Shown: in pieces, positions 32,038 through 34,256 of the stretch | Layout: each line of letters begins with the position of its first letter | How positions within the stretch are numbered: the stretch's first letter is position 1 | NCBI GenBank assembly: GCA_902774005.1 | Contig: CACYGK010000016.1 | Location: 1-39,852 of the forward strand | Source: an uncultured Bacteroidales bacterium | GTDB taxonomy: Bacteria; Bacteroidota; Bacteroidia; Bacteroidales; Bacteroidaceae | Direction: 5' to 3' | Length of the DNA stretch: 39,852 bases | The notes under the pieces: generated by a model | The model's database searches: none | What the model was told of the DNA's origin: nothing | Seen by the model: the letters and a program-made list of their open reading frames with translations, nothing else | Made by a program: the position numbers and the translations under genes

Positions 32038-32112
32038 TGGGATATGGTGTAATTGGCAACACAACAGATTCTGGTCCTGTTATTCCTGGTTCGAGCCCGG
32101 GTATCCCAACCA
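32038..32112 (+). tRNA. tRNA-Gln (anticodon CTG), CCA encoded
   Basis: The acceptor strands TGGGATA (32038-32044) and TATCCCA (32102-32108) pair fully; discriminator A at 32109, then an encoded CCA. The anticodon arm is ACAGA/CCTGT around TTCTGGT, giving CTG; its loop-closing pair is an A-C mismatch. T-arm CCTGG/CCGGG with loop TTCGAGC contains one G-T pair. The other two tRNAs here do not encode CCA. Confidence 0.88.
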
Positions 32113-32120
32113 AAAAAAAG

Positions 32121-32152
32121 GCGCTGAATGCTGAGCATTTAGCGCTTTTTTT
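32121..32152 (+). terminator. Intrinsic terminator after tRNA-Gln
   Basis: Eleven-pair stem (GCGCTGAATGC with GCATTTAGCGC, one G-T pair) around a TGA loop, followed by seven T's. An A-run precedes it, so it could also work on the minus strand. Confidence 0.9.
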
Positions 32153-32209
32153 GGTTTCAGTTCCTTTCCTGACTTATTGGTATTTTTTGAGACAAAAACA
32201 TTAAAAACC

Positions 32210-32337
32210 CCATTGTGATTGATTCGGCTCATGTTGAGCCTATTGTGCCAAGTGTGGTCTATGTCTCCGTGTGCAAGCGCCCAAGCCATTGACACACACC
32301 TTGTCACACCACCAAAGTGGTAAATCACTCACAATGG
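32210..32337 (+). other. Left cloverleaf-like structured segment
   Basis: An outer stem of 15 positions with one mismatch (32210-32224 with 32323-32337) encloses three arms: hairpin GGCTCA-TGT-TGAGCC (32226-32240), a middle stem (32245-32256 with 32295-32307, one mismatch and one bulge), and hairpin ACCAC-CAAA-GTGGT (32308-32321). It is flanked by a 16-bp direct repeat (32193-32208 and 32338-32353). It accounts for most of the 267-bp gap between tRNA-Gln and the GxxExxY gene. Confidence 0.65.
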
Positions 32338-32379
32338 CAAAAACATTAAAAACACATTTTTTTGTTACATATTTAACCT

Positions 32380-32823
32380 TCAAAAGGCGTACATAGTGTT
32401 TGTATCCGTATCTAAGTAATATCGTTCACATTGGTCGTGGACTGGAGCGAAATTGTACAGGATACCAATGCGAATCCCCGTAAGTCTCATGTAGTTCCAC
32501 AATTGTTGTCGTTGCTCAGAACCGAGTTGTTCGATTGCTTTGCATTCAACTAGAACCTCACCCTTGACAAGAAAATCTACGTAATGTCTATGTTTTATTT
32601 CTCTTCCGTGATACGTTACTGAGAAATAGTATTCCTTCACTTTCTCAATGCCTTTTTCTTCGAATGATATATCTAATGCATCCTGGTACATGTATTCATT
32701 CAGAAAGGGTCCCAATTCGCGATGGACTTCCTGACACGCTCCTATTATGGTATAACATCGGTTTCGGAGTTCCGAGACCATAGCCGGGTTTGAATCTGAA
32801 AGTTTGGCAATGTTATAAGTCAT
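32380..32823 (-). CDS. GxxExxY protein (PD-(D/E)XK nuclease-like, PDDEXK_3)
   Basis: 147 residues from the ATG at 32823; a longer in-frame start at 32919 is rejected since it would read through the structured repeat. The family is placed in the PD-(D/E)XK nuclease superfamily. The signature region reads 'LGPFLNEYMYQDAL': Glu and Tyr of the name motif are present, but the name Gly is Phe. The putative catalytic core is 'HYVDFLVKGEVLVECKAIEQLG' (Asp, then Glu-Cys-Lys). The biological role of the family is unknown. It is the only gene between the inverted repeats, and its start lies 17 bases from the inner edge of the right structured segment. Confidence 0.88.
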   Translation of the reverse strand: MTYNIAKLSDSNPAMVSELRNRCYTIIGACQEVHRELGPFLNEYMYQDALDISFEEKGIEKVKEYYFSVTYHGREIKHRHYVDFLVKGEVLVECKAIEQLGSEQRQQLWNYMRLTGIRIGILYNFAPVHDQCERYYLDTDTNTMYAF

Positions 32824-32848
32824 GGAATAATTTTTTTTTCTGTTTTTG

Positions 32849-32975
32849 CCGTTAAAGAGATTGAAACCCTGTAAGGGTAACGGGATTAGAGGGAAGCTTG
32901 TCTGAGAGCTCGCTCTCAAGAAAGATTGGCGCTGATACCGTTAGTACTCTTGTAAGAGTATAATCTCTTTAATGG
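32849..32975 (-). other. Right cloverleaf-like structured segment (inverted relative to the left)
   Basis: An outer stem of 14 pairs (32849-32862 with 32962-32975, one G-T pair) encloses hairpin ACCCT-GTA-AGGGT (32866-32878), a middle stem TAACGG/CCGTTA (78-83 with 38-43 of the 328xx/329xx range) capped by TGAGAG-CTCG-CTCTCA (32903-32918), and hairpin TACTCT-TGTA-AGAGTA (32945-32960). The sequence differs from the left segment but the layout is the same. It lies just upstream of the GxxExxY start. Confidence 0.65.
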
Positions 32976-33024
32976 GGTTATTTATGTTTTTGTTTAAATC
33001 TAACTCCTTTTTTACTCCCACTTT

Positions 33025-34203
33025 TTAAAACCTTACATACGCTTCTGCCCAGAGTTCGCTGTAGTTTTCCTTGGCGAGAGTGCGATCATTCACGAAATTA
33101 TACTGAAGTTGGAAGAGTAGATTCTTGTGAAGTTGGATATTCGGAATAACGCTATACATGCTTTTTGATGAACCCCAGGTGGCTTGACTGCGAAAGACAT
33201 CGTACTTCAGGTAAACCTTAAGCCACGAATTGAAGGGAACTCCTACTGTTGCGTACCATCCGTCAGCCTTTCCTGTTCCGTTCCAAGTCTTTGTCTTCTC
33301 GTCGTAGTCTGAAGCCTCGTGTCCGCATGAGTGGGTATATTCGGCACGGACGGTCCAGGCATTGTGTTCATACTTCAGACCTGCTGCCCAGCGCTTGCGC
33401 TCCAGTTCTAATCCGTTGGGAGTCACGTAGTTGCCGTTCCATCCGAATACTCCGATGAAAAGGTTCTTGACGGGTTGGAACTGAATCGTACCGATGAAGT
33501 CCTTGCGTTTATTCTTATCGGCGCTGTTGATGCCTTGTCCGTTCATTACCTGAAGCTGGTAATGGAGGTACCTGTGTCCGTCGGATGGGGCAGGGAAGAG
33601 GTCGCCTTGAATCTGAAGTCCCTGGTCGCGTCCCCCGTTTGCCACACCGTTCTCCGTTACTCCGATGCCGGCTATCATACGTGTTATCTGGGCATAGTCG
33701 CCTGCTCCCACATCCCACGGATTGTAGGGATTCTCGAAGGTGAACGCGCGTTTATATTGTCCCAGCTTTACGGAGAACTCCTTCCAACGTGCCCATTCGA
33801 TGAAGACATCCTTCATGTGGAAGTTCGCATTGTTTATCTGAACCTGCATGCGGTACTTGAAGTCCGTAAGTATCGTTCCGTCAACGTATGCACGTATGAG
33901 TCGCTGGGAGAATCCGCTTCCGTTATTGGCTCCGTCAGCCGAACTGTAGTCGTACTTCCCTATGAAATACGCTCCGAACTTAGGAGCCGAGACGTAGTCC
34001 TTCAGCGTCCTGCCCAAGGTGGGTTTCTCCTCCTTTGCTTCCTGCTTCTCGAAAGCCTGTTCCAGACTGCTGTTCAGCATGTCGGTCAGGAATCCGCCTC
34101 CAGGCGTTCCGTTAGGTTCAAATTCCGAAGTCTCGTTCCCTTCAGCCATCAGGGGTAGAGCCGTAATGCCCATCAGCAGGGCAATTGTAAATAATTTCTT
34201 CAT
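33025..34203 (-). CDS. Outer-membrane porin (phosphate-selective porin O/P family)
   Basis: 392 residues. Signal peptide 'MKKLFTIALLMGITALPLMA'. The rest alternates short amphipathic strands and turns typical of a 16-strand porin: 'FGAYFIGKYDYSS', 'LIRAYVDGTILTDFKYRMQVQINN', 'VKLGQYKRAFTFENPYNPWDVGAG'. It ends in Phe ('AEAYVRF'), the usual BAM recognition signal. The start of the mature part is a low-complexity, coiled segment (about 25-60). Channel specificity cannot be read. A candidate promoter lies at 34268-34275 and a heptad array sits in the leader. Confidence 0.88.
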   Translation of the reverse strand: MKKLFTIALLMGITALPLMAEGNETSEFEPNGTPGGGFLTDMLNSSLEQAFEKQEAKEEKPTLGRTLKDYVSAPKFGAYFIGKYDYSSADGANNGSGFSQRLIRAYVDGTILTDFKYRMQVQINNANFHMKDVFIEWARWKEFSVKLGQYKRAFTFENPYNPWDVGAGDYAQITRMIAGIGVTENGVANGGRDQGLQIQGDLFPAPSDGHRYLHYQLQVMNGQGINSADKNKRKDFIGTIQFQPVKNLFIGVFGWNGNYVTPNGLELERKRWAAGLKYEHNAWTVRAEYTHSCGHEASDYDEKTKTWNGTGKADGWYATVGVPFNSWLKVYLKYDVFRSQATWGSSKSMYSVIPNIQLHKNLLFQLQYNFVNDRTLAKENYSELWAEAYVRF

Positions 34204-34228
34204 TGTATTATGTTTTTTGAGGCAAAAA

Positions 34229-34256
34229 CAGTAAACAGTAAACAGTAAACAGTAAA
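34229..34256 (-). repeat. Heptanucleotide array in the porin leader (CAGTAAA type)
   Basis: Four perfect CAGTAAA units on the plus strand (TTTACTG on the porin coding strand), between the porin -7 box and its start codon, so inside the porin 5' UTR. Confidence 0.95.

Follow-up and report, generated by a model that had tools for sequence, protein, structure and literature searches.

Next to a tRNA-Gln gene (positions 32038-32112), the window, which is the whole analyzed stretch of 39,852 nt, holds a compact unit in which a single gene lies between two inverted ends (Table 1). The gene, whose stop codon occupies 32380-32382, runs on the minus strand from its ATG at 32823 and encodes a GxxExxY protein of approximately 147 aa. 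It is the sole open reading frame (ORF) of more than 100 aa inside the unit, in agreement with a preliminary description of the locus that had pointed to a lone gene and no transposase. The same description had reported terminal inverted repeats matching at 21 of 23 bases. This number was reproduced on recounting and exceeds the best 23-mer match (19) in 1,000 dinucleotide-preserving shuffles of the window flanks (32113-32379 and 32827-33025), none of which reached 21; over 28 nt, the identity of the inverted repeat is 86%. Each end spans approximately 160 nt and, between an outer motif near ACAAAAACNNNAANAACNC and an inner CAAAAAC motif, contains a palindromic segment. The matching inner motif that had been noted, GGCAAAAACA, was found at both ends.

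Table 1. Features of the unit in the window
Feature	Position	Strand	Evidence
Left end (outer motif, four-way-junction palindrome, inner motif; outside to inside on the plus strand)	32190..32350	+	R1 94.2 bits, E 1.4e-21 (end belongs to the R1 training set); DNA fold z -6.5
Left inverted repeat of the preliminary description (outer motif and start of basal stem)	32192..32214	+	21/23 versus right copy
Inner direct copy of the outer motif, CAAAAACATTAAAAAC	32338..32353	+	Direct repeat identical to 32193-32208
GxxExxY gene (TIGR04256/PF13366), predicted Cas4/lambda-exonuclease-like PD-(D/E)XK nuclease	32380..32823	-	Profile scores, AlphaFold2, Foldseek
Right end (outer motif, four-way-junction palindrome, inner motif)	32836..32995	-	R1 129.3 bits, E 5.8e-30 (end belongs to the R1 training set); DNA fold z -6.8
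Right inverted repeat of the preliminary description	32971..32993	-	21/23 versus left copy
Possible spacer remnant, TTAGATTTAA	32994..33003	-	In C67 (own genome, G000), this spacer links an intact outer repeat to ACAAAAACAT

The gene product belongs to the GxxExxY family (TIGR04256, 106.2 bits; curated cut-off, 35) and the PD-(D/E)XK superfamily (PF13366, 106.4 bits; cut-off, 22). Up to an E value of 1, these two models alone match the window gene, and no transposase or recombinase model does. Eleven alignment columns show the same residue in 59 of 59 sequences: G29, E44, Y47, E65, D84, E94, K96, Q108, Y112, G121 and N125, numbered from residue 1 of the analyzed stretch (32383-32826, minus strand), which begins at 32826, one codon before the ATG. 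They include the E-x-x-Y part of the family name (E44 and Y47) and a catalytic-type set of E44, D84, E94-x-K96 and QxxxY (Q108 and Y112). The earlier assignment to a PD-(D/E)XK-type protein with visible Asp and Glu-x-Lys residues is borne out by the PF13366 score and by D84 and E94-x-K96. An AlphaFold2 model of the window protein (pLDDT, 94.9) gave only two Foldseek matches with an E value below 0.001. The top match was Cas4 SSO0001 (E 3.9e-4; query TM-score, 0.50), followed by LHK-Exo and lambda exonuclease. The window protein is predicted to be a Cas4/lambda-exonuclease-like PD-(D/E)XK nuclease. A Holliday-junction-resolvase fold was considered and rejected, the first resolvase in the Foldseek list standing at rank 43. 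A sequence search against solved structures returned a single marginal match, Endonuclease I (E 0.98). The dN/dS ratio was 0.03 to 0.13 in all 13 unsaturated pairs, two further pairs, both including the window gene, being saturated; these values indicate that the protein is under purifying selection. In its own genome (80% complete), the window gene is the only GxxExxY match.

Folded as single-stranded DNA, both window ends form a four-way junction composed of a basal stem, two side hairpins and a long central arm, and none of 200 shuffles of either end was equally stable. The structured segment proposed earlier between the motifs is therefore present at both ends. In an alignment (A4) of 14 ends picked visually for sequence similarity, 84.8% of the cells of a 56-pair, four-helix structure are paired, versus 36.7 to 47.1% with slid partners; the structure was derived from the same sequences used to test it, which favors it. 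Changes on both sides were seen in 27 pairs, with some in all four helices. Of five covariation measures, four were higher than in any of 500 shuffles, and the number of further pair types was not (40 versus a mean of 41.8). Among 22 more diverse ends, RNAalifold found covariation in the basal and apical stems and did not recover the side hairpins. Energy folding alone was discarded as a criterion: it assigned a four-way shape to 34 of 46 ends, a set initially selected for possessing the basal stem and from which eight found ends had been dropped beforehand, but a three-branch loop also appeared in 218 of 920 shuffles. The four-way assignment therefore rests on covariation. Such covariation could also arise without selection on shape by arm-to-arm template switching, which occurs at quasi-palindromes.

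The apical tetraloop hints at the form in which the ends act. In 107 of 144 ends, its first base is the Watson-Crick complement of its last, compared with a mean of 62.5 and a maximum of 78 in 2,000 shuffles that leave relatedness uncontrolled. Such pairing leaves a loop of 2 nt. On the complementary strand, the common loops are CTTG and TTTA, and a CTTG loop behaves like TTTA. According to PMC8037738, TTTA forms a type-II DNA tetraloop in which residues 1 and 4 close the loop. Because a 2-nt loop suits DNA, the loop sequences favor, without proving, a role of the folded ends as single-stranded DNA. A known RNA family was also considered for the ends and set aside: Rfam gave no match in window positions 32100-33100 up to an E value of 1, and at the gathering threshold it matches tRNAs only. 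At the right end in L045 and L053 (3440-3660), an ATAAAC-like motif replaces CAAAAAC at both the inner and the outer position, as though the motif copies of one unit changed together.

Genes of this subfamily are found time and again flanked by inverted copies of the end, a recurrence that the preliminary description had proposed to check. Among 80 loci taken from 119 confirmed relatives, 74 had at least 300 nt on each side; a fuzzy end motif flanks the gene on both sides in the correct orientation at 43 of these 74 and in the wrong orientation at 3, against a background of 20 of 576 strands of 450 nt. A covariance model (R1), built from 22 of the 46 ends, yielded 207 matches in 96 sources. 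Considering the best 150 of the 207 matches in the correct orientation, both sides of the gene were occupied at 39 of 80 loci, one side at 22 and neither at 19; for the 19 loci L002-L020, the corresponding numbers are 17, 2 and 0. As R1 was trained on ends from these loci, the counts arise partly by construction, and the orientation contrast (both sides correct at 37 loci versus wrong at 2) is the fairer control. Several ends lie close together in L028, L030, L032 and L063, the last with seven R1 matches in 3 kb (L063:1220-4099).

Within the genus of the window, a GxxExxY match was found in 35 of 45 genomes and ends at an E value of 1e-5 in 14 of 45, with at most 10 model matches per genome. 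A universal link between GxxExxY genes and ends was rejected, as genus R1 matches lie near both sides at 3 of 29 fetched loci (L089, L090 and L111, the first two being the same loci as L006 and L044). The association with the ends belongs to part of the GxxExxY family. The genomes G004 and G042 (86 to 87% complete) hold 4 and 6 ends, respectively, and have no GxxExxY match, so the nuclease may be dispensable for persistence. In Sphingomonas (L259), a GxxExxY gene is wedged between fabD and fabG; the gaps of 33 nt before and 2 nt after the gene leave no space for folded ends. A distant GxxExxY gene in Bernardetia (L260) is likewise packed in an ordinary gene run with no space for them. Phage records contained no GxxExxY match, and none of 89 pattern stretches on viral contigs was confirmed. 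Seven plasmid records had a match, every one below 60% identity; of the five inspected, four carry other annotated genes around the gene and one is without annotation, and R1 gave one marginal match (E 0.009) on these five records.

Empty-site alleles, the other check proposed for the locus, were found at four sites. At the window site, for which a search returned 30 loci including the window itself, the one locus that was aligned comes from the sister genome G039. It retains the tRNA-Gln gene, the terminator and the porin gene (93% identical) and lacks the unit; 73 nt separate the aligned flanks, versus approximately 900 in the window, and divergence between the spacers prevents the junction from being read. 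A gene-less unit in the own genome (C18:1207-1633) is absent in both aligned relatives, G039 and G004. The unit of L006, whose gene is 77% identical to the window gene, is absent in 11 of 11 aligned relatives, with additional matching genomes outside these 11. The L044 unit is missing from all 3 relatives whose two flanks both align; a fourth relative (L275) has no left flank, and five more loci lie outside the alignment. Such units are gained and lost between relatives. Neither of the two outcomes named beforehand as contradicting a mobile unit, the lack of other end copies near GxxExxY genes and the lack of any empty site, occurred.

The boundary of the inserted DNA is readable at base level in one gene-bearing copy, L006, by alignment with the empty allele in G023. 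The empty site reads ...GGGCACAAAAAAGAAGGGACG, and the filled site carries AAAAAAGA on both sides with an outer repeat immediately inside. The inserted DNA starts GGCTCACCTGCAAAACTCTATGTGT, approximately 30 nt before the first end motif, and extends approximately 30 to 40 nt beyond the 23-bp repeat on each side; the target duplication measures 8 bp, or up to 10 bp if the preceding RC is counted. The 23-bp repeat had been put forward as the terminal repeat of a self-contained unit. Where the boundary is readable, it is an inner structure, as the L006 insertion ends further out, at a different repeat. Nor was a target duplication of 5 to 9 bp found at the boundary first proposed, among 15 and 22 two-ended loci (37 in total). 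Matches of 3 to 4 bp at the CAAAAAC boundary are only slightly above those of cross-locus pairs, in the wider group, and exact 8-mers common to both sides within 50 nt occur at 3 of 37 loci versus 5 of 281 cross-locus pairs.

The outer repeat itself recurs in the genus. Its pattern, GGNTCACNNGCAAANNCCTGTGTT, was found at 46 sites in 12 of 45 genomes with at most 2 mismatches, including 13 in G030 and 5 in G043, and reversed-pattern controls gave none. At L222/L251, an outer repeat leads straight into the ORF of an ISAon1 transposase (NF049917, 254.7 bits, cut-off 250; NF049916, 96.4, cut-off 55; PF01610, 85.7, cut-off 23), and outer-type repeats lie at both ends (4 and 1 mismatches). This ISAon1 copy is split over frames. 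The ISAon1 copy whose ends match best, in G009, is split in this way. A convergent pair of similar repeats with 1 to 6 mismatches, 6 being near background, was present in 5 of 10 fetched ISAon1 loci, including L222/L251; the other five, the three highest-scoring among them, had no such pair. ISAon1 matches occur in 12 of 45 genus genomes, 8 above the cut-off, and none was found in G000 (own genome, 80% complete), G030 or G043.

Outer repeats border the gene-bearing units L006, L007 and L008 as well as some gene-less units on both sides. Exact 8-bp duplications flank two units, the gene-bearing L006 and the gene-less L249 (CCTTTTTC), and near duplications flank L223 (7 of 8 bases) and L008 (6 of 8). 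Among 11 two-repeat units inspected, 7 had no duplication (L221, L224, L226, L232, L237, L239 and L007). An outer repeat scoring at least 12 accompanies 12 of 42 ends in the closest group (L002-L020), 2 of 18 solo ends in the genus (the score having been trained on sites that include these two), 1 of the 86 ends of the wider group and neither of the 2 window ends; with a shuffle test at p <=0.01, these numbers become 15 of 42, 3 of 18, 8 of 86 (approximately 1 expected) and 0 of 2. By either measure, the window copy has no outer repeat at its two ends and does not qualify as an ISAon1 cassette. A single universal outer repeat is unsupported in the wider group, although the shuffle test gives some excess there; these counts leave ISAon1 short of explaining the entire present-day family.

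At the right flank of the window unit, the A+T-rich sequence TTAGATTTAAACAAAAACAT is identical to that at the junction of an intact outer repeat and the motif in L229 (G000:C67), and it is possibly a remnant of the outer-repeat spacer. Upstream of the porin gene, TTTTTTGAGGCAAAAACAGTAAACAGTAAACAG (window positions 34212-34249) resembles the left outer junction near 32183-32208 and coincides with a weak R1 match (E 0.59); judged by this resemblance, it is possibly a scar. Elsewhere in the own genome, GAACATCTAAAAACGCNAAANACTC has perfect matches at C18:1171-1195 (L147), C40:4941-4965 (L148) and C66:201-225 (L149), each 11 to 20 nt outside a folded end; the window site has none, and the fourth match in the genome carries 3 mismatches. 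The right flank of L044 carries TTTGAACAT at a similar distance from the end. Could GAACATCTAAAAACGCNAAANACTC represent a second type of outer end?

Altered copies, grouped as derivatives and REARRANGEMENT, comprise L232, L221, L071/L074, L012/L072 and L028/L032. L232 (G043) retains both outer repeats and both folded ends around a GxxExxY gene reduced to approximately 90 bp (residues 1 to 30, E 5.1e-5) and is a MITE-like internal deletion. L221 (G007) has no left folded segment and keeps one CAAAAAC; because direct repeats flank each folded segment, a simple deletion between them would explain this loss. The entire unit, including its ends, is inverted between orthologous flanks in L071/L074. 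Similarly, L012 and L072 have a common left flank and opposite orientations of the unit, with an extra gene on the other side in L072. One genome holds both L028 and L032, which show 96% identity over 802 bp and, given their common left spacer, may be array duplicates.

Ends can change faster than the gene between them. In fixed windows of 190 to 200 nt, in which random pairs of end regions average 50% identity, the end regions of L012/L015 are 66% and 73% identical, compared with 98.6% for the gene and 91 to 93% for the flanks. In L045/L053, the gene (99.1%) and the left end region (98.9%) are conserved, and the right end region is 71% identical. Three other pairs keep ends as conserved as the gene (L037/L038, 97 to 100%; L016/L017, 98 to 99%; L033/L034, 94 to 99%). 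The fast change could result from exchange between copies or from arm-to-arm template switching.

The unit thus has two layers, is present or absent at given sites, and has an outer layer that resembles ISAon1 ends. Our preferred explanation, with a probability of roughly 0.55, is a non-autonomous cassette that depends on an ISAon1-type transposase acting in trans for its movement; the nuclease probably acts on the folded ends, and the window would hold a decayed copy. The conserved core would be the GxxExxY gene between two inverted four-way-junction DNA ends of approximately 160 nt. In the genus and its close relatives, an ISAon1-family (ISL3-like, DDE) transposase would move such cores in trans, recognizing outer inverted repeats a few to approximately 20 nt beyond the folded ends and making an 8-bp target duplication. 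We infer that this enzyme was the mover and that both outer repeats, once present in the window copy, have since been lost. Weighing against this explanation are the missing outer repeats of the window copy, their scarcity in the wider group, the lack of ISAon1 matches in G000, G030 and G043, the five ISAon1 loci with no repeat pair, the frame split of the G009 copy, the seven units free of a duplication, and the ends of G004 and G042 with no GxxExxY match. Binding or trimming of DNA at the folded ends is the most likely task of the GxxExxY protein and would be within reach of a Cas4/lambda-exonuclease-like nuclease; such a task would account for the joint retention of gene and fold. As the window copy fails the outer-repeat test, we do not class it among ISAon1 cassettes; we propose that the family behaves as such a cassette in the relatives that keep the repeats. 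Of the modes offered in the preliminary description, movement in trans is the best supported in this genus, and a self-contained unit with 23-bp ends is not upheld.

Several properties of the core would also fit an element that mobilizes itself, with the nuclease recognizing the folded junction and driving excision, inversion or hairpin exchange, and the ISAon1 repeats forming an outer coat in one lineage. The core is present at many loci where no outer repeat scores highly (in the wider group, 1 of 86 ends has one), L044 has no recognized outer repeat and yet is missing from all three relatives aligned on both flanks, units are inverted in L071/L074 and oppositely oriented in L012/L072, and ends are replaced beside a similar gene and flanks in L012/L015 and on the right only in L045/L053. 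We nevertheless regard self-mobilization as unlikely, given that a clear target duplication is absent at the CAAAAAC boundary, that the gene matches no transposase or recombinase model up to an E value of 1, that its closest structural relatives are exonucleases, that ends persist in the incomplete genomes G004 and G042 without a GxxExxY match, and that three pairs keep their ends as conserved as the gene. A bolder version, which we hold to be doubtful, would be a new class of selfish DNA in which a Cas4-like nuclease reads junction shape and not sequence to invert, swap hairpins and spread, with insertion sequences (ISs) as optional vehicles; if only shape is read, hairpin sequence can change fast.

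A stable, domesticated host locus seems quite unlikely; its folded ends would be regulatory or terminator-like, its gene would serve the cell, and presence or absence would reflect old losses. The L006 site is filled in one genome and empty in 11 of 11, with a duplication, and gene-less derivatives and outer repeats lie at dispersed sites; the 96%-identical L028/L032 in one genome weigh less, since they look like array duplicates. Purifying selection on the gene is consistent with a host function, as are the site kept across diverged genomes (e.g., L033/L034/L042/L051) and the scarcity of matches in phage, viral and plasmid sequences described above. Very unlikely, in our judgment, is a junction that works as RNA, with transcribed ends processing or regulating the nuclease mRNA. 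RNA folding and DNA folding agree on the four-way shape of both window ends, and covariation alone cannot separate the two, but the paired tetraloop ends leave 2-nt loops that DNA permits, the complementary loops are CTTG or TTTA, the latter being the DNA tetraloop of PMC8037738, and an Rfam match is absent.

In the open-licence literature searched, no described role was found for GxxExxY, which two papers mention in passing: PMC8934634 places the gene close to a reverse transcriptase gene, and PMC12085832 includes it in the gene list of an algal virus. None of the papers listed in these searches has a title or abstract opening that describes a GxxExxY unit with four-way-junction ends. The link between a GxxExxY subfamily and a covarying four-way-junction element provides a concrete candidate substrate for the protein. 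Should the protein read DNA shape, mobile DNA would offer a new case of structure-specific recognition, and the ability of the ends to keep their function through changes in sequence would be explained.

Mobile insertion cassettes and MITEs have IS-type inverted repeats around a non-transposase gene or no gene at all. Similarly, the unit in its relatives shows IS-type repeats around a non-transposase gene or none, a short duplication, internal deletions and no transposase of its own. However, it adds an inner inverted layer of four-way junctions that is found with the gene at many loci without a recognized IS repeat, and the window copy lacks IS repeats. A mobile insertion cassette is named in PMC5444012. 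The outer repeat resembles the ends of ISAon1-family (ISL3-like) ISs of the same genus, with NCBIfam identifying the ORF beside one, but the unit codes for a PD-(D/E)XK nuclease instead of a DDE transposase. Integron attC sites and IS608-type ends conserve a folded single-strand structure over sequence, in the form of a single hairpin. The unit also keeps folded structure over sequence, here judged by predicted fold and covariation; it differs in being four-way and in having a gene without a tyrosine recombinase or HUH match. IS608 subterminal structures are named in PMC6006769. With Cas4, lambda exonuclease and RecB-like nucleases, the protein has in common the predicted fold and the invariant E, D, ExK and QxxxY residues, but it is short (approximately 147 aa), and the modest TM-scores stand for a match in fold, not in function. 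The RAYT enzyme of REP/RAYT systems is a tyrosine (HUH) transposase, to which the window gene has no match up to an E value of 1. Like the REP/RAYT (REPtron, REPIN) systems presented in PMC3116915, PMC3733652 and PMC8266576, the unit places its gene between inverted palindromes and has dispersed gene-less copies, whereas its enzyme is of the PD-(D/E)XK type, its ends are four-way junctions of approximately 160 nt compared with palindromes of 20 to 40 bp, and genomes of the genus hold at most 10 model matches each.
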